From NCBI GenBank assembly GCA_030630935.1, contig DAOVMD010000059.1, positions 1 through 11,236 on the forward strand: a stretch of 11,236 bases of DNA. The letters are read 5' to 3'. The notes under the pieces were generated by a model. The model had not been told where the DNA came from. It worked only from the letters and a program-made list of their open reading frames with translations, and ran no database searches. A program made the position numbers and the translations under genes. Of the stretch, positions 1-11,236 are shown piece after piece; within the stretch, counting starts at the first letter, position 1; each line of letters opens with the position of its first letter. Source of the DNA: Candidatus Mcinerneyibacteriota bacterium. GTDB lineage: Bacteria > AUK180 > JAQVHJ01.

Positions 1-74
1 AAACCGCACGGCGGGTTCTGTGAGGGGCGGTCGTTCTCACTATTAAATTTATGAGGACGACACGTCTACTCGAC
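1..74 (+). mobile_element. 3' end of a group II intron (domains V-VI)
   Basis: The first 18 bases look like the 3' strand of group II intron domain V: a GAAA-type loop remnant, then CCGCAC and GGCGGGTTC. A short TGTGAG linker leads into a domain VI hairpin, where GTCGTTCTCA (about 29-38) pairs with TGAGGACGAC (about 51-60) with one G-U wobble. An unpaired AC that could hold the branch-point adenosine follows, and the element ends in TCTACTCGAC, a common 3' terminus of bacterial group II introns. The 5' part, with any intron-encoded reverse transcriptase/maturase, lies left of the window. The boundary near base 74 is inferred from the consensus. Confidence 0.72.
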
Positions 75-132
75 ATTAAAAATTTCTTTTTTTTTGTTTT
101 TTTTTTCTCTGTGTTCTCCATGTTCGGAGTTT

Positions 133-165
133 ACCCCGGTTTTTCGGGGTGGTGAAATATTTTTT
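133..165 (+). terminator. Weak hairpin with T run downstream of the intron
   Basis: ACCCCG (133-138) pairs perfectly with CGGGGT (145-150) around a 6-base loop. A T run at 160-165 follows only after a 9-base gap. It could be a weak Rho-independent terminator for transcripts leaving the group II intron, but the gap between stem and T run is unusual, so this is tentative. Confidence 0.25.
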
Positions 166-229
166 GCAATTATTAGAATCTTTAAGCACCTGTCGCTCTA
201 AACAATTATAAACAATATTAGTAAGTTAC

Positions 230-262
230 TTATAAGTCTCTTTAAAGTCCATGTTAAAATTT
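230..262 (+). repeat. 33-bp direct repeat, copy 1
   Basis: It begins TTATAAGTCTCTTTAAAGTC and matches 600-632 at 32 of 33 positions (C/T difference at 240 versus 610). Similarity ends abruptly at both edges. The two copies are 370 bp apart. Function is unknown. Confidence 0.8.
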
Positions 263-336
263 TTTAATTTTTGTTTTTCTTTTCTCCTTTTGTTTTATGT
301 TTTTCTATCGAATGGGTGTTTTATCTCTTATGGTCA

Positions 337-356
337 GGGCGACCGGCCGGTAGCCC
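337..356. repeat. GC-rich 20-bp palindrome
   Basis: GGGCGACCGGCCGGTAGCCC is self-complementary except for one G/A pair. It stands out as a GC-rich island in AT-rich DNA. The flanks extend it to a CAGGGCGACC...GCCCCTAC form that resembles dispersed extragenic palindromes of other bacteria (from memory, not searched). It could fold into a hairpin or cruciform. Confidence 0.6.
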
Positions 357-384
357 CTACTGCATTTTCATACATAATGCAAGA

Positions 385-410
385 TCATTCTTACTTGCAG
401 AGCGAAGCGA
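385..410 (+). repeat. Dispersed 26-bp repeat, copy A
   Basis: The segment starting TCATTCTTACTTGCAGAGCG matches the reverse complement of 3928-3953 at 25 of 26 positions. It ends in the GAGCGAAGCGA motif that recurs in both intergenic islands. Confidence 0.8.
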
Positions 411-532
411 TGCTTTAAGTTCTCGTTAGTTCTCTTTAGTTCCCTGTTAAATAAAAAAGTTTGAGCGAAGCGAGTTAAATTTAAATTTATCTTTTGTTTT
501 TCTTTTGTAATGAATGATTAATGATGTTTTTT

Positions 533-575
533 TTAAAGCGAGATTGCCGCAGTCGTTTCACTCCCTCGCAATAAC
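533..575 (-). repeat. GTCATTGCGAG-type interspersed repeat
   Basis: The segment runs from TTTAAAGCGAGATT to CCTCGCAATAACA. On the opposite strand it reads TGTTATTGCGAGGG...GCAATCTCGC, resembling a dispersed repeat known from many bacterial genomes (recalled, not searched). A related module forms the right half of the MITE-like element at 4051-4259, sharing the TTTAAAGCGAGATT and CCTCG(C/T)AAT ends. Confidence 0.6.
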
Positions 576-599
576 ATTCAGTTATTTTCCTATTATCCA

Positions 600-632
600 T
601 TATAAGTCTTTTTAAAGTCCATGTTAAAATTT
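600..632 (+). repeat. 33-bp direct repeat, copy 2
   Basis: Partner of 230-262, same orientation, 32 of 33 bases identical. The core TTTAAAGTCCATGTTAAAAT is identical in both copies. Confidence 0.8.
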
Positions 633-784
633 GCATCCTATGGAACACGCTAAACACGCCGCAAAATAAAAAACTCGCTTCGATAAATATTTATGATTTA
701 AGGGAGTAAAACCCCATTATTTATGCGTAAAAAAACAATAAATGAGATTATATAAAAGTATTAACATTATCACGTTCCAGTTTG

Positions 785-800
785 GCCCTGCAAGCAGGGC
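785..800. other. GC-rich hairpin downstream of hpt
   Basis: GCCCTG (785-790) and CAGGGC (795-800) form a perfect 6-bp stem with a CAAG loop, 74 bases past the hpt stop codon. On the minus strand, the direction of hpt transcription, no U tract follows, so it is not a canonical intrinsic terminator. It may still mark the 3' end of the operon transcript. A T-rich stretch follows it on the plus strand, but no plus-strand gene is visible there. Confidence 0.35.
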
Positions 801-874
801 TTGTTATTTGGTTACATGATTAGTTTTACAAATAGCTATGTTCAAAGGGTGCTTGCGCCGTTATTAATTGAAAA

Positions 875-1510
875 TCATTTGTCACTGTTGTTTTCGCTAA
901 ATATCTCAGGTTTTAAGATAGCAATATGTTTATAGCCACGATAATTGTCGGCATAATCCAAGCCATACCCAACCACAAATTCATCTGGGATAATGAATCC
1001 TGTATAATCTGCTTTTACATCTTCAAAGCCGGGCAATCTTCTCTCGACTTTATCGAGTAATGCACAGGATTTAATTGAGTTAGGTTTGAAACTATTTGTT
1101 AACTTATTTATAATGAACCTTAATGTTCTTCCGGAATCAACAATGTCCTCAACTATTAAAACATCTTTCCCGTCCAGGTTAACCATAGGAGTTAATAGCA
1201 GTTCTAAGTCTCCGCCCACAGTCCCTTGTTTATAAGAAGAAACTTTGATGAATGTACGCTGCAGTGATAACCCGATTCCCTCGGAAAGATCTTTGATAAA
1301 GTGAACACTTCCATCTAATACTCCAAGAAGAACCAATTGTTTCCCTTTATATTCTTCCTGAATATCGTGAGATAATTTTTCAGTCCTTAGAACAATTTCT
1401 CCATTTAGAATCAAAATTCCCTTAAAATCCCGCGCCGCATATTTTGGTGATCTGATTGATGAAACTGCAACTAAAGGAGTGTTTCTTAAATCAATGATTT
1501 TATCTTTCAT
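875..1510 (-). CDS. hpt: Hypoxanthine(-guanine) phosphoribosyltransferase
   Basis: This 211-aa cytosolic enzyme should convert hypoxanthine, and probably guanine, plus PRPP into IMP or GMP for purine salvage. The type I phosphoribosyltransferase signature VLIVEDIVDSGRT lies at residues 117-129, with the acidic pair E121-D122 and catalytic D125. The pyrophosphate loop LGVLDGS is at 62-68, base-contacting LLDK at 151-154, and the IPDEFVVGYGLDYADNYR block, typical of bacterial Hpt, at 174-191. Relative to E. coli Hpt there are about 28 extra N-terminal residues. The ATG sits 4 bp after the nucleotidase stop codon and has only a weak ribosome site, so translational coupling is likely. A TTG at codon 33 (base 1414) follows AAGGGA but the spacing is only 3 nt, which makes it a less likely start. 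Confidence 0.93.
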   Translation of the reverse strand: MKDKIIDLRNTPLVAVSSIRSPKYAARDFKGILILNGEIVLRTEKLSHDIQEEYKGKQLVLLGVLDGSVHFIKDLSEGIGLSLQRTFIKVSSYKQGTVGGDLELLLTPMVNLDGKDVLIVEDIVDSGRTLRFIINKLTNSFKPNSIKSCALLDKVERRLPGFEDVKADYTGFIIPDEFVVGYGLDYADNYRGYKHIAILKPEIFSENNSDK

Positions 1511-1514
1511 CTTT

Positions 1515-3218
1515 TTATCTCATCGTTTTAATTTTATGTAGTTTTTTCTCAACAATAAGTAATACTTCTTTTTCTTGAACGAGTTTCCAGTTATTAGTTG
1601 GAGTATGTGAAACGACTTTGTTCTCCTGTAAATATTCAATTATTAAATTACGAATAGGTTTATTAGACCTAGAAATAATTGGGGAATCTAATGCATTCGC
1701 AGCTTTAAGATGACCACCCCCGCCGTTTGAACGGTAATTATTCATTGCAACGTTATAAGTCCCCTCAGGATCCAAAGGATTTCCCGTTTTTGATTCTAAT
1801 AACTTAATTACTCTTTCTCCTTCCGGTTTAGAAAGATCTATTTCATAAATGATCCCTTCAAAAGTATCATAGTTGTAACCTTTAAGTTTTTTGCTGATAA
1901 CTCCATCCTCAAATTTTTCTGTCCCGTTAAAAAACGTTGCAGAATATTCAATATAATCCTTTATCATTTTTCCAGTCATTTTTCTAACATATAAGAAGTT
2001 TTCATACTTATAAATCCCGGCAATATCCGCAATTGTAATCTCCCCTGTTTCAATCTCCAAATTTGGATTAAATATAGCCGCCGCAGAGATATCTGCACCA
2101 GTGACATCCAGCTGAACCTTATGGATTAAATCTGTTATAGGATTATCTTTGAAATAAGAGTAGTAAGAATTAATATCAACCTTAATCTCAGCAATTGGTG
2201 TCTCAGAATATTGCTTTGTTTCATTATAATATTTTTTTACTTTTTTAAAGAGAATTTTATCAGAGGGATAATCTTTCATGGAGATTAGTTTCGAAGTCTT
2301 ACTTACTATTACCCAATCTTTATTTTTCCTTTCCAATTCAATTTTTATCAGAGTTACATTAATTGCATAAGCCCCGGGTTGTGTTATTAAAACCTTATTT
2401 ACTAATGCAGATTCTACCGGTTTGTGTATATGCCCAGAGATTATAATGTCAAGCCCAGGGTTTTTCTCTGCAGTGATAATAGCAGCATTTTCAATTGGAA
2501 TCGATGAGTCAGATTCCTTTAATTCCTTTTTACCATACCCGGAATGAAAAAGCCCAACTATAATATCTGGTTTCTCCTTCTTTTTCATTTTCCTTAACCA
2601 ATACTCTGTTGATTCGGGGATCGATTCAAACTTTATGCCTGCATAAACTTTTTTATTTAGCCACTGTGGAATTCCTGGAGTAATCATTCCAAGAATGACA
2701 ATCTTTATTCCTTCTACCTTAATAACTTTATATGGTTTGTAGAACGGTTTTTTAGTTTTATTTTCATGAACTGCATTTGCTGCAAGAATCGGGAAGTTAG
2801 CTTGCTTGATGACTTCCTTAACTACCGGTATTCCTTGTTCAATATCATGGTTACCCAAAGCAGCAGCTTGATACCCAATATAATTCATTGCTAATATCAT
2901 CGGGTCAGGTTCCTGCAGGAATTTTGAATTATGAAGAGTAGTAAGTGGAGTTCCCTGGATTATATCTCCGGCACTTAATAAAATTAAATCAGGCTTCTTC
3001 TTCTTGAAATCCTTTACCCAGGATGAAACACGGATTAGCCCGCCTTGAATTTCATTCCCAGTAATAAAATCGTAATCAAATAAATGCCCGTGCTCATCAC
3101 TTGTTGCAGCAATATAAATTACTTTCCTTTTAGATTGATCTCCCCAAAGTTCAACGGGGATAAAAATAAAAAAGATTAATATTATAGATAAAAATAAAAA
3201 AAGTTTCCTGCCCTTCAT
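1515..3218 (-). CDS. Secreted 5'-nucleotidase / UshA-CpdB-family metallophosphoesterase
   Basis: This 567-aa exported enzyme probably removes phosphate from nucleotides (5'-nucleotidase, possibly also cyclic-nucleotide phosphodiesterase) outside the cytoplasmic membrane. Residues 1-26 form a Sec signal peptide: MKGRK, then a long hydrophobic stretch. The two-metal calcineurin-like domain shows D41 and H43 (SDEHGH), D85 (SAGDIIQG), N123-H124 (GNHD), H225 (FHSGYG), and H263 and H265 (GHIH). The C-terminal nucleotide-binding domain carries MNNYR at 492-496 followed by a GGGG run at 499-502, resembling CpdB and related enzymes. No lipobox cysteine or cell-wall anchor is visible. AAAGGGGAA precedes the ATG. 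Hpt follows 4 bp downstream, which fits a salvage route in which nucleotides are dephosphorylated outside and bases reused inside. Exact substrate preference cannot be read from sequence. Confidence 0.88.
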   Translation of the reverse strand: MKGRKLFLFLSIILIFFIFIPVELWGDQSKRKVIYIAATSDEHGHLFDYDFITGNEIQGGLIRVSSWVKDFKKKKPDLILLSAGDIIQGTPLTTLHNSKFLQEPDPMILAMNYIGYQAAALGNHDIEQGIPVVKEVIKQANFPILAANAVHENKTKKPFYKPYKVIKVEGIKIVILGMITPGIPQWLNKKVYAGIKFESIPESTEYWLRKMKKKEKPDIIVGLFHSGYGKKELKESDSSIPIENAAIITAEKNPGLDIIISGHIHKPVESALVNKVLITQPGAYAINVTLIKIELERKNKDWVIVSKTSKLISMKDYPSDKILFKKVKKYYNETKQYSETPIAEIKVDINSYYSYFKDNPITDLIHKVQLDVTGADISAAAIFNPNLEIETGEITIADIAGIYKYENFLYVRKMTGKMIKDYIEYSATFFNGTEKFEDGVISKKLKGYNYDTFEGIIYEIDLSKPEGERVIKLLESKTGNPLDPEGTYNVAMNNYRSNGGGGHLKAANALDSPIISRSNKPIRNLIIEYLQENKVVSHTPTNNWKLVQEKEVLLIVEKKLHKIKTMR

Positions 3219-3279
3219 TGTTCCCCTTTTATTTTTAGTGTCTGAAAAGAATGTTTTTCTAAGTCAATATAATAGTTGT

Positions 3280-3519
3280 TTATTCACTTTCCGATATTAC
3301 TGCTACTTCTTCTTCTTGCAGTTGTTGAATTTTCCTTTCTAACTTCTCATATTTTCCTATTCGAGCTTTTTTAAATGAGTTATATAGAAGCCCAACTGCA
3401 ACAAACATAATGGCAAGATTAATAATATAATCATAAATTCCAACAGATTGAATTAACATATCTTTTATTACGCCGACAAATCCCAGAACTATAAGTATAA
3501 AACACCAAAAAATAATCAT
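3280..3519 (-). CDS. Small two-helix membrane protein with charged C-terminal helix
   Basis: I do not recognise a family for this 79-aa protein. The start is the ATG at 3519: a perfect AGGAGG lies 6 nt upstream, and the promoter's -10 and -35 boxes (3545-3573) lie inside the longer frame that begins at 3573. Residues 2-20 (starting IIFWCFILIVLGFVG) and about 30-48 (IINLAIMFVAVGLLYN) are hydrophobic and should span the membrane. The tail, KYEKLERKIQQLQEEE, is charged and has coiled-coil character, probably cytoplasmic. It is the first gene of the unit that continues 61 bp later with the secreted nucleotidase and then hpt. That context suggests co-expression, but I assign no function. Confidence 0.7.
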   Translation of the reverse strand: MIIFWCFILIVLGFVGVIKDMLIQSVGIYDYIINLAIMFVAVGLLYNSFKKARIGKYEKLERKIQQLQEEEVAVISESE

Positions 3520-3525
3520 AAGATT

Positions 3526-3531
3526 CCTCCT
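3526..3531 (-). promoter_or_regulatory. Perfect Shine-Dalgarno that fixes the start at 3519
   Basis: CCTCCT on the plus strand is AGGAGG on the coding strand, separated from the ATG by 6 nt. It supports the 79-aa form over the 97-aa frame. Confidence 0.85.
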
Positions 3532-3544
3532 AAATTTATATTTT

Positions 3545-3573
3545 ATTATATCAGATAATAAATACAATGTCAA
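3545..3573 (-). promoter_or_regulatory. Full-consensus sigma70 promoter (TTGACA-17-TATAAT)
   Basis: On the minus strand, TTGACA (3573-3568), a spacer of exactly 17 bp, and TATAAT (3550-3545). A TG one base upstream of the -10 gives an extended -10 (TGATATAAT). The predicted start of transcription near 3538 gives a leader of about 19 nt holding AGGAGG. It should drive the 79-aa membrane protein and probably the nucleotidase and hpt. No operator is evident. Confidence 0.85.
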
Positions 3574-3927
3574 GATGATTACAAAAGAAAATAGTTTCGC
3601 TTCGCTCTACAATAAAGTGTTAAAGTGTTCAATGCATGGTTCGCATGCGTTCAAGTGTTCAAATGTTATTGTTTCGCTTTGCTACACATCTATGATTTTT
3701 GATTGGTAATTATTAATTTAAGATTGATTTTGCATTAGGTATGATAATGTATTTGTTTAGAGCGACATTTCTTAATATAAAGCTTTTTAATTATTCATAA
3801 TTAACAAAAGAAGATAAATCATTTTCTGTTCTCGGTTCTCTTGTATCTGTTCTCTATTCAAGCAACAGAGTTTCTTGAGGATGGCACATCTCGATGAAAT
3901 TATTTAGAAATAAAAAAATAACTTAAT

Positions 3928-3953
3928 TCGTTTCGCTCTGCAAGTAAGAATGA
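3928..3953 (-). repeat. Dispersed 26-bp repeat, copy B (inverted)
   Basis: It is the reverse complement of 385-410 with 25 of 26 bases matching (G/A difference within GAGCGAAGCGA). The two copies flank the membrane protein-nucleotidase-hpt unit in opposite orientation. Confidence 0.8.
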
Positions 3954-4050
3954 ATAATGTTTTGCTTTGGAGAATACAATGCTTTTGGTTAGAAAAAAAG
4001 GTACTTATGTAAGTAATCGAATGTAACATATAGATATCTTGAAATACATA

Positions 4051-4259
4051 GAGGTTGTCCGATAACTCCATTTTGTCATTGCGCATCGAAGATCTAGCGA
4101 AGCGTCCAGGAGGAGAATTACGACGACTGAGGCAATCCTGTGTTTTTCTTTAAAGCGAGATTACTTCGGTCAGTGCGCTGTTCACCGCACTTCCCTCGTA
4201 ATGACAATACTTTTGTTTTTCCTATTAAAAAAGTTATCCACAAGTTGTCGGACAGCCTC
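4051..4259. mobile_element. 209-bp MITE-like element with 4-bp target duplication
   Basis: The left end, GAGGTTGTCCGATAACT (4051-4067), and the right end, 4243-4259, are inverted repeats matching at 15 of 17 positions. CATA directly abuts both ends (4047-4050 and 4260-4263), as expected for a target-site duplication. Inside are two GTCATTGCG-type modules facing each other: 4075-4138 (GTCATTGCG...GGCAATCC) and 4155-4205 (GCGAGATT...CGTAATGAC). There is no transposase, so it would be mobilised in trans by an insertion sequence with GAGGCTGTCC-like ends. I cannot assign the IS family with confidence. Frames crossing it are spurious. Confidence 0.75.
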
Positions 4260-4314
4260 CATAGAGTTCTGGGTAAGCTCAACATCTTGAACTCGCGGAG
4301 AGGAAAGGTTTGCA

Positions 4315-4345
4315 AATCTATATTTTTAAATTATAAATATAGATT
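4315..4345 (-). terminator. AT-rich hairpin at the 3' end of the broken NTF2-like gene
   Basis: AATCTATATTT (4315-4325) and AAATATAGATT (4335-4345) form a perfect 11-bp stem with a 9-base loop. The stem begins within the TAA stop codon of the minus-strand gene. No U run follows in that direction, so it is a 3'-end structure or weak terminator rather than a textbook intrinsic terminator. Confidence 0.4.
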
Positions 4346-5399
4346 ATTTTAATATTTTATCGAATAATTTGAATTCAGTGATCACATAATTTTTATTATT
4401 TGATAGAATAAATTTATAGGTAACTTTTAAAAAATATCCTTGTTGTTTACCGTTTATTGTTAATGCTTTAAATGAAATATTACGAAGATGACGGTCTGTA
4501 ATGGAATATAAATCATGAGAAATCCTGTCTTGATGATGGTTTCTATATACTATTTTTCCATTTCTATTTATTTTAAGATAATATACAATTGTTCCTTCAA
4601 AAGACATGAAAGGATGCTTAGGAATAATTAATTTTTCATGTTTTTCTATTATATCAGTTAATTTAATTTGTTCAGGAATGTTTTCAATTGTTTTTATCAT
4701 GTTTTTTCTTTCTGCAATATCCTTTTCAATTTGCATGAGAAATTCAGAAATATTGAAATCCTTTATTATAATATAGTCTTTACCATATTTATTTATTAAT
4801 TTCTGAAGTATTATCTCGATTTCTTCTAAACGCTTTAAATTTAATTCCATATTTCCTTTATTAGGATCCTGTTCATCCAGGTTTTTAATTGATTGGGAGA
4901 GATGACAAGTTCTTGAACGTGACGAGTCTATATCCTTCAAAACATTATGATATTTTTCAGTAAGTTTAAAAGCAATTTTCCAATTGTAATTAATTTTCTT
5001 TAAGACAAGATAAAAGTGATCAAAGTCAATCATTGTTCCTTCATCACTGTAATAATATTTCGTAATATATATCATAACACAATTATCTCCTGGAGTGATA
5101 TGCTCTATTTTGCCTAAATGAAACTTGACTGTTTGAATAGGAGGAATGCTGATATTACTAATTGTCCATTTATTACTAATTATCCACTGTGTATCAGTTT
5201 TGAAATTTTCGTATGAGATTTGTTTTCGATCTTCTTTTGATATTAACCTATAAGCATTTTTAGTTTTATCTTCTTTCAGAAGCCAAAGAAACTAATCTGC
5301 AAGTTTTGTTGGAGAAGAGATGATTTTATATTTATTGTATGAAATCATTCCCAAAATAATGGCAATTAATAATCCAAGTATAATAATTCTCTTTTTCAT
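4344..5399 (-). pseudogene. Membrane-anchored NTF2-like-domain protein, interrupted by an in-frame amber codon
   Basis: Reading from the ATG at 5399, one frame of 351 codons runs to the TAA at 4344 and is broken only by TAG at codon 36 (5294-5292). Residues 1-20 (MKKRIIILGLLIAIILGMIS) are an N-terminal membrane anchor or signal. From about residue 28 the pattern SPTKLAD-stop-FLWLLKEDKTKNAYRLIS, ending near NWKIAF, resembles NTF2-like/DUF4878-type domains. A charged helical middle follows. The final ~80 residues (KINRNGKIVY...YFLKVTYKFIL) are beta-rich and faintly like TonB C-terminal domains. An ATG at codon 109 (5075), with GGAG 11 nt upstream, could yield a 243-aa fragment lacking the anchor and half of the first domain. 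A nonsense mutation is the simplest reading. Amber readthrough or sequencing error are alternatives. Confidence 0.75.
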
Positions 5400-5484
5400 A
5401 ATAAATAAATACGCAATTTAGCAGTAATTATTTTAAATTTAATGTTTTTCTCTCTACATATACTAAAATGTCAAGTAACTAACT

Positions 5485-5512
5485 TTTATATCATTCTATA
5501 TAACTGTGCTAA
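5485..5512 (-). promoter_or_regulatory. Possible promoter of the broken NTF2-like gene
   Basis: On the minus strand TTAGCA (5512-5507), a 16-bp spacer, and TATAAA (5490-5485) with an upstream TG (TGATATAAA). It is weaker than the other promoters in the window and would leave a leader of about 75-80 nt without a strong Shine-Dalgarno site. Confidence 0.35.
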
Positions 5513-5574
5513 GTTTTTTGAGATTATTATTTTTTATCATTATTAAAAAGCCTTCAGTATAATTATTATTTATG

Positions 5575-5614
5575 TCAGTTGCATGATTTGTCAATTGACA
5601 AATCGTGCAACTGA
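5575..5614. repeat. 40-bp near-perfect palindrome (operator or cruciform candidate)
   Basis: The left arm, TCAGTTGCATGATTTGTCAA (5575-5594), pairs with 5595-5614 at 19 of 20 positions; the exception (5584/5605) is a T-G pair. There is no loop. The inner 14 bp, TTGTCAATTGACAA, are perfectly symmetric. It lies 115 bp upstream of the PaaX-type gene's -35 box and 62 bp upstream of the weak divergent promoter. Possible roles are a regulator-binding site, a cruciform, or fused inverted repeats of a lost element. No target duplication is visible at its edges. Confidence 0.75.
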
Positions 5615-5729
5615 AAACAATCTTTTTATTAGCGAATTATATATTCGAAGTTATATAGCTCTTAAGGACGAATAATGTTCATCTTTGCTGAACTCTATTC
5701 CCAATACCATACTAATACTAATTTTTCTC

Positions 5730-5758
5730 TTGACTGAGTAGAGTGTTTGTGATAAAAT
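5730..5758 (+). promoter_or_regulatory. Sigma70 promoter of the PaaX-type gene (TTGACT-17-TAAAAT)
   Basis: TTGACT (5730-5735), exactly 17 bp, TAAAAT (5753-5758). Transcription would begin near 5765, giving a leader of about 17 nt before the ATG at 5782. The in-frame GTG codons at 5743 and 5749 lie inside the spacer and cannot be translated from this promoter. Confidence 0.75.
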
Positions 5759-5781
5759 ACATCAAAAGCGAGAAGATTTAT

Positions 5782-6573
5782 ATGCGCAGTTTCACTAAGG
5801 AGATTTTATTAAGTCTTAAGTTGTTGGGTGAGTTCAAGTTGAAGTCAGCTGTTGCAGCATATAAATTGATTGACGGGAAGAAAATAGAACCGACTATTCG
5901 GCAGATGATGTATTACCTGGTAAAGAAAGGCTATATACAGAAAAAGCGTTTGCCTGGCGGGGTGTGTTTTTATTTAACAGGCTCAGGTTTAAATGTTATA
6001 AGTGAAATTGACAAGTTGATTTTTCCCGACCATTCGAACTGGAATATGAAATGGAAACTTGTTTTTTTCGATATCCCAGAAGTTAAACGATCATTACGAG
6101 ATAAGTTTCGCCGTGAACTTAAGAAGTTAGGATTTGGGATGCTGCAAAATGGAGTTTGGTTCACACCAATAATTAGTTCAGAACAGATTTCTGAAACGAT
6201 TAAAAAATCAAAAGTTGAGAAATACACAGTTATCTTTTCCGGGAAATTTGAAGACTTCACAATTTCTCCGGAACTATTGGAAGAAAAATTTAAAATAAAA
6301 TCACTTATTAAGGAATTTTCTAGTCTGTCAAATAAAATTAATAATTTATTTTCAAAGGTTGGGATATCAGGTTTGAGTTCTAATCAAAAATTAATTGGAA
6401 AAATTATTCTGAGAAATCGTTTCCGATTATTACTAAGTAATTTAATCCGTCGATTACCACCCTTACCGGATAAGATTCTTCCTGGTAAAAAAATAATTCA
6501 TAAGACATTTTCAGAATATGAGAAAATTCGGAAACTTACAACACAAGAGTTATTCAAAGACAGGATTAATTAG
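5782..6573 (+). CDS. PaaX-family transcriptional regulator
   Basis: This 263-aa cytosolic DNA-binding regulator has an N-terminal winged helix-turn-helix (starting MRSFTKEILLSLKLLGEF; residues ~1-75, including KIEPTIRQMMYYLVKKGYI and a wing near LPGGVCFYLT). A Cas2-like ferredoxin-fold middle domain follows (WKLVFFDIPEVKRSLRDKFR...LGFGMLQNGVWFTP, ~90-130). A C-terminal PaaX_C-type region has RLPPLPDKILPGKK, matching the family's LP-x-x-LLP pattern. PaaX of E. coli represses phenylacetate catabolism with phenylacetyl-CoA as ligand, but no paa genes are present here, so target and ligand are unknown. I chose ATG 5782 because the promoter covers the upstream GTG codons and GAGAAG sits 6 nt before it. 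The stop overlaps that of convergent tldE. Confidence 0.78.
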   Translation: MRSFTKEILLSLKLLGEFKLKSAVAAYKLIDGKKIEPTIRQMMYYLVKKGYIQKKRLPGGVCFYLTGSGLNVISEIDKLIFPDHSNWNMKWKLVFFDIPEVKRSLRDKFRRELKKLGFGMLQNGVWFTPIISSEQISETIKKSKVEKYTVIFSGKFEDFTISPELLEEKFKIKSLIKEFSSLSNKINNLFSKVGISGLSSNQKLIGKIILRNRFRLLLSNLIRRLPPLPDKILPGKKIIHKTFSEYEKIRKLTTQELFKDRIN

Positions 6574-7910
6574 AAGTCTGTCTTTCCTGTAAAATTGAAT
6601 TGTTTAATTTTCAATTTTGGAACCACTGTTCCACCACCCATAAAGCCACCTGAAAAGACTTGCAAGTTTGAAATCTGAGTTACATTATTTAGTGCGTCAA
6701 TGATACTTTGAGTAAACCGCATGTTTTTTATACTTTTAGCTATCTTACCGTTTTTAATTAGGAATGTTCCATTTCTTGTCATACCGGTATAAAGCGTTTT
6801 CATAGGGTCACTGATATTTGTATAGTGAAACCTTGTTATCAGGATTCCTTTCTTAGTAGTTCTGATCATTTCTTCGGGAGATGTTTTTCCCTTTGATAAA
6901 GCAATGTTTAAAGGTAATGGTCCATAAACCATTCCTGGAGGAAGGGCATGACCGGTGTTTTTCATTTTAAATTTTTTGGAATAATAATTATCATATACCA
7001 AACCTTTAAAGATTCCGTCCTTGACTATTGATACTTTTGATCTCTTTACTCCTTCAGAATCAAATGGAATCCCTGAAGCTTTTTTATGATTCCAGTTATC
7101 TGTAATTGTTATGTTTTTTCCAAAGACCCTCTTCCCAACTTTTCCAACTAGCGGGCTTCTTCCTTCGTGATAACCTTTTGTACCAAATGCAAAATAGGTT
7201 AAGTATGTAAGCATTTCACCAACCGCTGCTTCTTCAAGGATTACGGTATATTCTCCCGGGTCGATAGATATGGAGTTCTGGGAGAGGATGCACTTTTCAA
7301 TTGCGATTTTTGCAACTTTCTTAAAGTTAATCTTTGAAAAATCATTTTGGATCTCTTCCGCAAATCCTGTCCCGAGTCCTTTATCAGTTATAATAAAAAG
7401 GGATGAACTTGAAGCCGATGCAAAACAATCTGCACCATTTGTTGTGGCGACACCGAAATTATCAGTTTTAGTAGAAATAAAACCGGAAGCATTTACATTC
7501 TTTTCTGAACAGAGTTTGACAATTTCTTTTAACATCTCTGCTCTTTGTTTCGGGGTAGTTTTATCTGTTGTCTGATTGAATTGCTTATAATACTCAGCTT
7601 GAATTCCTTCAGGTAATCCGGGATAATCAGGGTCTTCCGGAGAAAGCTTGGCTATCTTTTCTGCATTTCGAAGAGCTTTTATTAAACCTTTCCTGGTGAG
7701 ATCATTTGTTGATGCGACCCCGGTTTTTTTTCCAAAGATAACATTGATGACTATATTTCCATTGTTTTCGTGGACATTCTGGTGAATATAAGAATTTGCT
7801 AAGCGGGTAAGAAAAGATGTGTTTTTAAAATAGTTAATTTGGATATCATTGGCTTTAGAAGAATTAAATATGATGTCTTTAATTCTATCGAATCTCTTTC
7901 TATCTATCAT
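6570..7910 (-). CDS. tldE: TldE/PmbA, non-catalytic subunit of the TldD-TldE metalloprotease
   Basis: This 446-aa protein is the partner of TldD; E. coli TldE/PmbA is about 450 aa. In E. coli the TldD-TldE heterodimer is a zinc protease that trims the microcin B17 leader and degrades the CcdA antitoxin. Zinc sits in TldD, and TldE lacks the HExxxH motif. Here the corresponding region reads EEAAVGEML, with EAAVGE at 227-232, so no metal site is present. The family pattern continues through GRSPLVGKVGKR and the terminal block TFLIKNGKIAKSIKNMRF...GGTVVPKLKI. ATGA overlap with tldD and GGAG upstream indicate coupled translation. The stop codon shares bases with that of the convergent PaaX-type gene. 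The product should be cytoplasmic and needs TldD for activity. Confidence 0.92.
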   Translation of the reverse strand: MIDRKRFDRIKDIIFNSSKANDIQINYFKNTSFLTRLANSYIHQNVHENNGNIVINVIFGKKTGVASTNDLTRKGLIKALRNAEKIAKLSPEDPDYPGLPEGIQAEYYKQFNQTTDKTTPKQRAEMLKEIVKLCSEKNVNASGFISTKTDNFGVATTNGADCFASASSSSLFIITDKGLGTGFAEEIQNDFSKINFKKVAKIAIEKCILSQNSISIDPGEYTVILEEAAVGEMLTYLTYFAFGTKGYHEGRSPLVGKVGKRVFGKNITITDNWNHKKASGIPFDSEGVKRSKVSIVKDGIFKGLVYDNYYSKKFKMKNTGHALPPGMVYGPLPLNIALSKGKTSPEEMIRTTKKGILITRFHYTNISDPMKTLYTGMTRNGTFLIKNGKIAKSIKNMRFTQSIIDALNNVTQISNLQVFSGGFMGGGTVVPKLKIKQFNFTGKTDF

Positions 7911-9349
7911 TTTCCCACTCCAACTTTTACATTTCTGAACCTGGCTCTTGATACTCCGTGAGAAACACGAGCAGTCTGCATAGGGTCACCTTTTCCACAG
8001 TTTGGAACACCCCAGACCCTCCAGTCTTTCTTGTTTGAGATTCCATCACAATTATTCCAAAACTCAGGAGTTATACCGGTATAGTTGGGGTTCTTTACAA
8101 TGTGTTTGAGTTTTCCGTTCTTGATTACCCATCCTATTTCACAAGCAAATTGGAAATTTAATCTTTTATCATCAATGCTCCAGCTTTTATTGATTGCCAT
8201 GTATATTCCATTTTTTATTCCACTAATCAAGGAATTAAAAGTGTCCTTCCCCGGAAGCAAGTTGATGCTTGTCATTCTAATCAAAGGTAACCTATTAAAT
8301 CCATCAGCACGCATGGTCCCGTTACTTTGCATGCCCAATTTTACGGCAGTCTCTCTTGAAGTTAAGTATCCAACAAACTTTCCTTTCTTCACGATATAGG
8401 TTTTTTGCGCCGGAATACCCTCATCATCATATCCAAAAGATCCGAGAGAATGCTTTATTGTGGCATCAGCAGTAATGTTAACTATTTTGGATCCATATTG
8501 AAATTTTCCAAGTTTATCAGGAGTAAGAAATGAAGTCCCTGCAAGTGATCTTTCGGTTCCAAATACCCTGTCCAATTCGATTGGATGACCGCAAGACTCA
8601 TGAACCTGAAGTGCTAATTGGCTACCTTCAAGGATTATATCCATTACTCCGGATGGGCATTGCGGTGCAGATAATAAAGCAATTGCTTCTTTTGCAGTCG
8701 GTTTTGCATTCTCTTTTAATTTTAAACTTAAGACATGTTCCCAACCGGAATTTTCAAAACTCCCACCGAAAGATGCCGGGTAAGAGCGTTTTTGAACCTC
8801 ACCATCTTTCATTGCATAAGCTTCTAAGCCAGCTCCGGTTTGAATGGTTTGCTGAGTGAAATATCGGTTCTCAGTTGATGCAAAAATTTTCTCTTCCTTA
8901 GTGCTTTGACAAGAAACATGTCCAATTATAATCCCTTTCACTTTTAAAAGTTCATTACTTACATCCAATAGAAGATCGATTTTTTCCTTTATAGAGATTT
9001 CAAATGGATCAATTTTATAGGGAGACTTCCAGGAATCTTTTAATGGGGAGAGCTTTTCAAATGTTACCGGTTCATGCTTTAGTATCCCGGAAGCTTTTGC
9101 AATCTTAACCGCCAGTTTCGCTACCTTTTCTATTTCCTTCTTTTCAAGAATGCTGCTGCTTGCAAAACCCCAATATCCTTTATAAAGAACTCGAATTCCA
9201 AAGCCTGCCCAATTCTTCTTATTAATACCTTCAACCTTTTTGTTCTTTACAGAAATATTCTCTGTTTCTATTCTTGTGATCCTAATGTCTCCATATTCAG
9301 CACCAAGGTTCTTAATGACTTTTAAAGCCAGGTTTGTTAGCTTTCTCAT
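7907..9349 (-). CDS. tldD: TldD, zinc-binding catalytic subunit of the TldD-TldE metalloprotease
   Basis: This 480-aa protein matches the usual TldD length (481 in E. coli). The zinc site is visible: H250-E251-S-C-G-H255 (HExxxH), with the third ligand Cys451 in NCGKGDPMQ. The N-terminal pronounced alternating alpha/beta region (RIETENISVKNKKVEGI...GFGIRVLYKGYWGFASSS) and the IPAQKTYIVKKGKFVGYLTSR segment are typical. With TldE it forms an intracellular protease that admits unfolded peptides to an enclosed active site; known substrates elsewhere are the microcin B17 precursor and CcdA. No peptide precursor or toxin-antitoxin pair is visible here. It follows the aminotransferase by 19 bp and overlaps tldE by ATGA, so the three genes are probably one transcript. 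The ribosome site (AGGTAAG, ~13 nt upstream) is weak. Confidence 0.94.
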   Translation of the reverse strand: MRKLTNLALKVIKNLGAEYGDIRITRIETENISVKNKKVEGINKKNWAGFGIRVLYKGYWGFASSSILEKKEIEKVAKLAVKIAKASGILKHEPVTFEKLSPLKDSWKSPYKIDPFEISIKEKIDLLLDVSNELLKVKGIIIGHVSCQSTKEEKIFASTENRYFTQQTIQTGAGLEAYAMKDGEVQKRSYPASFGGSFENSGWEHVLSLKLKENAKPTAKEAIALLSAPQCPSGVMDIILEGSQLALQVHESCGHPIELDRVFGTERSLAGTSFLTPDKLGKFQYGSKIVNITADATIKHSLGSFGYDDEGIPAQKTYIVKKGKFVGYLTSRETAVKLGMQSNGTMRADGFNRLPLIRMTSINLLPGKDTFNSLISGIKNGIYMAINKSWSIDDKRLNFQFACEIGWVIKNGKLKHIVKNPNYTGITPEFWNNCDGISNKKDWRVWGVPNCGKGDPMQTARVSHGVSRARFRNVKVGVGK

Positions 9350-9368
9350 GCTTGCTATTTCTTACCTA

Positions 9369-10577
9369 TTATAAATTCTTTTCAATTACTTTACCTAACC
9401 TTTTTAGTCCTTCCTCAAATAGCTCCTCCTTTGCATATGAGAAATTTAATCTTATGCAATTTCTACTCTTGCTGTATGCGTCGAAGGCTGAACCAATTAT
9501 ATAAGCGACATTCTCTTTGATGGCTTCTTCAAACATTTTTTCCGTATCAATTTTCTTTGGAAGCTTAACCCAAAGGAATAATCCGCCTTCCGGATTTGTC
9601 CAGGAAATCTCATCATGTTTCGGCAAATACTTATCGAGGTACTTAATCATGAGATTTTTTTTCTTTTTATAAACTTCGATTGTTGATTTTATATTCTTCT
9701 CCAGCAGACCACGTTTCATATATTCATATACAATAAATTGTGTGAATGGGGGAGTGCATAAATCAGCAGATTGCTTTGCGACAACTAATTTATCAATAAT
9801 CGCGGGCTCTGCAATAACCCAACCTAACCTAAAGCCTGGAGCAAAAATTTTCGAAAATGTATGTAAGGACATTACATTTCCAATATTATCAAGAGAAAGC
9901 ATTGACTCTGGTTCTTCTCCCTCAAACCTAAGTTCACGATACGGACTATCCTCAAGAATTAAGAAATCAAACTCCTTACTTAACTCAATCAGTTTCTTCC
10001 TTCTATCAATTGTCATTGTTGTTCCGGTCGGGTTTTGGAAATCAGGAACAACATATACAAATTTGTAATGCTCTTCCTTTTTCCGTAATTCCTTTAATTT
10101 AATTTCCAGCTTATCTATATTCATACCATTCTCATCAACTTTAACCCCAACTAAATGTGCTCCATAAGTATTGAATGCTGATAATCCACCAAGATAAGTA
10201 GGTAACCCAACAATAATAGGATCACTCGGATCAATAAATATCTTTGAAATTAGATCTAACCCTTGCTGGGATGCAACAGTTATTAATATGTTTTCTCTTG
10301 TGATAGAAACATTATCCCTTTTCGCCCACTCAATCAATTGATCCTTTAAGAGGTCGATGCCTTCGGTGGGACCATATTGTAAGGCTCTCGCACCATATTC
10401 CTTTAAAACACTTGAACAAATATCGTCCAATTCATCAATTGGAAAAGTCTCCGGGGCCGGTAAACCACCTGCAAATGAGATAATTTCAGGTTTTGCCGTT
10501 AATTTTAAAAGCTCCCTGATAACAGACTTTTTCATCCTTCTGGCATTTATAGAATAATTTTTCTCAAGATCGATCAT
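9369..10577 (-). CDS. Class I/II PLP-dependent aminotransferase (LysN/2-aminoadipate-type)
   Basis: This 402-aa cytosolic fold-type I PLP enzyme has the full family pattern. N-terminal AGGLPAPETFP is followed by LQYGPTEG and by NPTG (in VPDFQNPTGTTM), whose Asn contacts the cofactor. LEDSPYRELRF supplies the Asp that pairs with the pyridine nitrogen and a Tyr. FSKIFAPGFRLGW has K243 as Schiff-base lysine, and RNCIRLNFSY near the C terminus has the carboxylate-binding Arg. It resembles the LysN/Aro8/MocR-C-terminal group that transaminates 2-aminoadipate, aromatic or branched-chain amino acids with 2-oxoglutarate. The exact substrate is unknown. AGGAGG (10584-10589) is 6 nt before the ATG. tldD begins 19 bp downstream, and the zinc-ribbon gene ends 79 bp upstream with no clear promoter between. 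Confidence 0.9.
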   Translation of the reverse strand: MIDLEKNYSINARRMKKSVIRELLKLTAKPEIISFAGGLPAPETFPIDELDDICSSVLKEYGARALQYGPTEGIDLLKDQLIEWAKRDNVSITRENILITVASQQGLDLISKIFIDPSDPIIVGLPTYLGGLSAFNTYGAHLVGVKVDENGMNIDKLEIKLKELRKKEEHYKFVYVVPDFQNPTGTTMTIDRRKKLIELSKEFDFLILEDSPYRELRFEGEEPESMLSLDNIGNVMSLHTFSKIFAPGFRLGWVIAEPAIIDKLVVAKQSADLCTPPFTQFIVYEYMKRGLLEKNIKSTIEVYKKKKNLMIKYLDKYLPKHDEISWTNPEGGLFLWVKLPKKIDTEKMFEEAIKENVAYIIGSAFDAYSKSRNCIRLNFSYAKEELFEEGLKRLGKVIEKNL

Positions 10578-10656
10578 ACGAATCCTCCTTTATTAATTAT
10601 TTTTTATTTGGTTTAAACTTATTGAAATGTGTGAAGAAAAGAAATTGAAATGATCA

Positions 10657-11091
10657 CTATTTAGCTTTTTCAATACTTTTTCTCGTGTTTTTATTTTTCT
10701 TTTCTATTTCCTTCGCCTTCTCTTTTGAGATCCCCTTCTCTATATATTTCTCTCGACAGACATCACAAAGACTGTCTTTCCAAACATTACTGATGAATGT
10801 ATATTTATGACAAACTTCACATTTCTTAAATCCGCCAGTTATAAAGATTTTAACAAGATCACTGACCAATTCATCCTTTTTCTCAGGTTCTGAGGTGGAT
10901 TTCTTGATTTTATGCTGTACAAGCCTATGAATCTCCTGCTGCTCAGATACAATGTCTATAAGCTTAACTAAACCATCAACATTTAATAAAGAAATATCAT
11001 CTCGAATATCTCTCAATAGATGTGAAATTGATTCAAGAGATTCAGATATTGATTTCAAATACTTAAGTTCATCTCTTGGTTCAATGGCCAT
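10657..11091 (-). CDS. Coiled-coil/zinc-ribbon protein of unknown function
   Basis: I do not recognise a named family for this 144-aa protein. Residues ~8-65 are predicted helical, with heptad-like hydrophobics (LKYLKSISESLESISHLLRD), so dimerisation is likely. A charged linker follows. C91, C94, C109 and C112 make CxxC-x14-CxxC, a zinc-ribbon or treble-clef-like metal site. The tail (KEKAKEIEKKNKNTRKSIEKAK) is very basic and could contact nucleic acid. No signal peptide or membrane segment is present, so it is probably cytoplasmic. It appears to be the first gene of the aminotransferase-tldD-tldE unit, from the promoter at 11115-11143. The ATG is preceded by a purine-rich AAAGAGAAAAAA rather than a strong Shine-Dalgarno. 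A role in regulation or as a protein adaptor is possible but unproven. Confidence 0.75.
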   Translation of the reverse strand: MAIEPRDELKYLKSISESLESISHLLRDIRDDISLLNVDGLVKLIDIVSEQQEIHRLVQHKIKKSTSEPEKKDELVSDLVKIFITGGFKKCEVCHKYTFISNVWKDSLCDVCREKYIEKGISKEKAKEIEKKNKNTRKSIEKAK

Positions 11092-11114
11092 TTTTTTCTC
11101 TTTATTTTTAAATT

Positions 11115-11143
11115 ATATTAACATATTTATATTAAATAGTCAA
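11115..11143 (-). promoter_or_regulatory. Sigma70 promoter of the zinc-ribbon/aminotransferase/tldDE unit
   Basis: On the minus strand TTGACT (11143-11138), exactly 17 bp, TAATAT (11120-11115). The start of transcription near 11108 would give a leader of about 17 nt, like the other promoters in the window. No obvious operator symmetry. Confidence 0.75.
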
Positions 11144-11188
11144 GTGAAAAGATAAGTTACCAGCTCTGAATAGTAAATTAAAAATCGT

Positions 11189-11217
11189 TTGACAAAAATC
11201 GAAAAATGTATTAAAAT
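11189..11217 (+). promoter_or_regulatory. Divergent sigma70 promoter running off the right edge
   Basis: TTGACA (11189-11194), exactly 17 bp, TAAAAT (11212-11217). A possible ribosome site, AAAGGTG, appears at the last bases of the window, so the coding start should lie just beyond base 11236. The gene is not visible. Confidence 0.75.
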
Positions 11218-11236
11218 ATGTATGACAAAAGGTGTA

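Follow-up and report, generated by a model that had tools for sequence, protein, structure and literature searches.

A survey of prokaryotic genomes found that in-frame stops are common and that many of them are short-lived (PMC7918605). Bacterial nonsense-mutation pseudogenes of this kind have one premature stop in a frame intact on both sides, a homolog with a sense codon at the same site, and the status of an accessory gene. Internal-stop pseudogenes are also inflated in number by low sequencing coverage (PMC11017572). Pyrrolysine-type amber recoding, as in the mtmB/mttB genes that go with pylT/pylS, likewise shows itself as a long frame with one TAG inside. We analyzed a gene of this general appearance in an 11,236-nucleotide stretch of DNA (the window; contig DAOVMD010000059.1, positions 1 to 11,236) from a Candidatus Mcinerneyibacteriota bacterium (GCA_030630935.1). 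The gene has every feature listed above for nonsense-mutation pseudogenes and nothing that sets it apart from them. It shares its lone TAG with the pyrrolysine genes, but it does not encode a methylamine methyltransferase.

Translation of the minus strand from 5399 to 4342 bore out the layout described in the earlier note, a 351-codon frame that runs from ATG 5399 to a TAA at 4346-4344 (4344-5399, minus strand) with one internal stop, a TAG at 5292-5294 that forms codon 36 (MKKRIIILGLL...TKLAD*FLWLLK...KILK*). Upstream of the ATG the open frame adds only 6 codons, for a total of 357 codons with the one TAG inside. At the base composition of this AT-rich gene (GC 0.25), the probability of a stop is 0.093 per codon, or about one expected every 11 codons, and yet all 315 codons 3' of the TAG are open, which has a chance probability of ~5e-14. 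Because such a run is so improbable by chance, the frame is a real, gene-like coding frame that is interrupted once. For a gene this AT-rich, statistics of codon usage and amino-acid frame are weak and can neither date it nor test selection on it, so the case for a real gene rests on homology, with a paralog that aligns across the stop and a C-terminus that resembles TonB_C.

The paralog was found by searching the whole genome with the read-through protein. It lies on another contig (C247; L002:1489-2031), is incomplete at the contig end with 181 residues, and aligns with residues 16-157 of the interrupted protein at 30% identity (E 1e-9), unbroken across the stop. Opposite the TAG it has a sense codon, for Tyr, with the exact partner uncertain by one position, as a MAFFT alignment of the two proteins was shifted by one residue near this site. 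In our own ungapped placement, the TAG falls opposite Lys and Tyr in two weaker NTF2-like homologs, which come from two genomes of the class. Thus, a look at which residue replaces the TAG, proposed in the earlier note, returned ordinary amino acids that vary between homologs, so no special residue is expected at codon 36. Above noise, the read-through protein matched only this paralog and one TonB_C protein in a search of 60 genomes, GTDB contigs, viral contigs, and plasmids, and a two-row profile of the N-terminal region, run against seven genomes of the phylum, recovered its own two copies and only the two weak NTF2-like matches.

The interrupted protein begins with a hydrophobic helix (residues 2-23; 5331-5396, minus strand) that, by sequence and model, is a putative membrane anchor or signal. 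The stretch after it, residues ~30-142 (4974-5312, minus strand), is probably an NTF2/MecA_N-like domain, and it is this domain that the TAG splits. The MecA_N profile scored 13.6 bits for the interrupted protein (P0001) and 19.7 for the paralog (P0002), both below the cut-off of 22 bits. An AlphaFold model, built from an input alignment of two sequences, had a mean pLDDT of 49.6, rising to ~72-81 for residues 31-70. Up to residue 142 it shows a helix at 30-42, three more helices, and four strands, with residue 36 inside helix 30-42, the predicted helix 1 of the domain. The best PDB matches of the model in Foldseek were PBP3 (probability 1.00, E 1.8e-3) and PBP2a, over ~110-120 columns, and we read the matched part of each as its N-terminal NTF2-like domain. 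The paralog match, the subthreshold MecA_N scores, the model, and the Foldseek matches together support the NTF2-like pattern that the earlier note had seen crossing the stop. The helix and strand order, the anchored N-terminus, and the best structural matches are those of MecA_N domains (PF05223), although here the Pfam score falls under the gathering threshold and no transpeptidase follows the domain.

Residues 144-238 (4686-4970, minus strand) are predicted, at low confidence, to form long helices. Beyond them, residues 265-342 (4374-4607, minus strand) resemble a TonB C-terminal domain (PF03544); the nearest relative has a TonB_C protein that is 37% identical to this region over 78 residues (pairwise E 1e-10). 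This likeness is one of pairwise similarity, as neither the Pfam nor the NCBIfam TonB models match the interrupted protein; unlike in TonB_C proteins, moreover, we saw no typical proline-rich linker.

The same evidence bears on where translation might begin. The earlier note had suggested that a restart at codon 109 could give a truncated soluble product, and there is a candidate restart site at 5073-5090 on the minus strand, where a GGAG (5090-5087) stands 11 bases upstream of ATG 5075 and is followed by an open 243-codon frame. Because of this GGAG, some initiation at ATG 5075 is possible. That the restart makes a functional, soluble protein of 243 residues is, however, very unlikely. Homologs do not all begin at codon 109, as the match to the paralog starts at the equivalent of residue 16. 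The model places helices and the first NTF2 strand before residue 109, and codon 109 itself in the second strand. The product would have no anchor and would lose half of the NTF2 fold, such that a folded domain is unlikely to result from this site; the one part that could fold as in its relatives is the TonB_C-like end.

We then considered whether TAG is read as sense in this organism. Among 45 genes of at least 150 codons in the sampled parts of the genome, TAA is the terminator of 28, TAG of 11 (24%), and TGA of 6. At one locus (L011), the gene for a type II/IV secretion ATPase (T2SSE) ends in TAG, and the codon that follows it is the start of aspS, which lies in the same frame and also ends in TAG, so that reading TAG as sense would fuse two unrelated proteins. 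TAG is therefore an ordinary stop in this genome, in contrast to codes in which it has been reassigned. A search of the genome for PylS gave nothing over the cut-off (best match 22.6 bits against 178), and a match at L011 in that search was rejected as PylS, being aspS. A search of the genome for the methylamine methyltransferase MtmB gave no match. None of 30 tRNA matches in the assembly, which is 80% complete, has a CUA anticodon; the proposed check for an amber-suppressor or pyrrolysine tRNA thus turned up none in this part of the genome. The RNA 3' of the TAG has no stable structure of the kind that stimulates readthrough (z -0.55).

Among the tRNA genes, between tRNA-Val and tRNA-Asp, there is a tandem tRNA-Asp-like copy (L041 1501-1575; G000:C33:6091-6165). 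Its anticodon loop has 8 bases (ATGTCTAT, ARAGORN 'gtct') and its T stem is mismatched. The copy may be a degraded duplicate or a frameshift-suppressor-like tRNA.

RF1 (prfA) was not found in the 80% complete assembly, whereas RF2 is present. Because all 8 of the relatives searched have RF1, its absence is most likely an assembly gap, and with TAG ending many genes we rejected it as a sign of recoding. Amber readthrough or recoding, whether by pyrrolysine, a suppressor tRNA, or a reassigned TAG, would yield the full-length protein and fits with a frame wholly open downstream of the TAG; a suppressor tRNA could also sit in the missing part of the assembly. We nonetheless regard this explanation as extremely unlikely, given the use of TAG as a routine terminator (including in the T2SSE/aspS pair), the presence of RF1 in the relatives, the failure to find mtmB, PylS, or a CUA tRNA, the unstructured RNA, and the variable residues at the TAG site in homologs.

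A further argument against it came from a scan for pairs of long open stretches with a single stop between them, covering ~128 kb of sampled sequence with overlapping loci included. The scan produced a second convincing case, at L035 1918-2931, where a lone TAA at 2449 falls in the middle of a repeat in a gene for a TPR-like protein (NNIGMIY*NKNDLQNALEFLNQSVEI), the TPR assignment having been made by eye. The other results look like ordinary gene junctions, though not each was checked. Since the stop in this second gene is not TAG, the case points to a general cause, either mutation or consensus error, and not to an amber mechanism.

The surroundings of the interrupted gene indicate what kind of gene it is. 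The window also contains genes for a phosphoribosyltransferase, a 5'-nucleotidase, a PaaX-like regulator, two PmbA/TldD-type proteins, and an aminotransferase. The nearest relative, from the same family but another genus, shares this neighborhood, with a phosphoribosyltransferase, a 5'-nucleotidase (63% identical), a PaaX-like gene, and a PmbA/TldD gene. Stops seen in its PaaX gene were rejected as interruptions since they lie upstream of the start, outside the frame proper. On the orthologous contig of the relative, no homolog of the interrupted gene was found, and a chromate-transporter gene occupies its place. Because it is missing from this orthologous interval, the interrupted gene is accessory and lineage-specific, and its loss is plausible.

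The gene lies beside dispersed repeats. A dispersed noncoding repeat at 3590-3921 of the window has many copies and part-copies in the genome (73-97% identity); a search with 3574-4343 gave at least 53 matches, with 40 of 490 candidates scored. Directly downstream of the gene is a MITE-like element of ~214 bp (4049-4262), which has several partial genomic copies (87-95% identity) and imperfect terminal inverted repeats (GAGGTTGTCCGATAAC / GAGGCTGTCCGACAAC). In the gap that separates the interrupted gene from the PaaX-like gene lies a palindrome (5568-5621) with 27-nt arms, 85% complementary, and no loop, for which an operator, a terminator, and a small mobile repeat are candidate roles.

Of the four explanations offered in the earlier note, recent nonsense mutation and sequencing error withstand these results, and recoding and restart at codon 109 are opposed by them. 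We conclude that this is probably a real, lineage-specific accessory gene that was recently inactivated by one substitution. The gene would have encoded a membrane-anchored or secreted envelope protein, in which a hydrophobic helix at the N-terminus is followed by an NTF2/MecA_N-like domain, then by a helical linker, and finally by a TonB_C-like C-terminus. Codon 36, until then a sense codon, would recently have become TAG through one base substitution, such that translation would halt after a 35-residue stub, leaving the gene inactive in the sequenced consensus. As is expected of a nonsense-mutation pseudogene, the alignment to a homolog continues through the stop, where the homolog has a sense codon, and TAG does act as a stop in this organism (11 of the 45 sampled genes end in TAG). 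We infer that the organism itself carries the substitution and makes no functional protein, although the stub, or a product of restart, might retain a role. If the mutation is real, the lack of further stops or frameshifts in the frame suggests that it is recent: 6.1% of substitutions in the gene would create a stop, making it unlikely (5%) that more than ~48 substitutions have occurred since inactivation without another one appearing.

It is also quite possible that the organism has an intact gene and that the TAG arose as an error in sequencing or assembly, or came into the metagenome consensus from a minor strain allele. The source genome is a fragmented bin, with 471 contigs at 80% completeness. 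The bin of the nearest relative is about as fragmented (460 contigs, 72%), and the relative's contig is labeled with a coverage of 2.74, a value that belongs to that contig and not to this one, and low coverage is a documented cause of spurious internal stops (PMC11017572). Consensus errors in general would also produce two sampled genes with lone stops. However, the remaining conserved genes of the window are intact, family and homolog searches of the genome gave no other interrupted match, and real nonsense mutations do accumulate in dispensable genes such as this one.

A recent nonsense mutation thus remains our preferred reading, and the event as a whole is of an ordinary, already known kind, a gene broken by one stop. 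It would be most surprising if the organism instead tolerated or programmed low-level readthrough of isolated stops, TAG here and TAA in the TPR gene; were that so, interrupted accessory envelope genes would still be expressed at a low or switchable level. Ordinary mutation and a low-coverage consensus each produce just such lone in-frame amber codons in AT-rich metagenomic genes. Before recoding is invoked, it should be asked whether the codon ends other genes and whether other stops interrupt other genes, and for this organism both checks lead to the ordinary answer.
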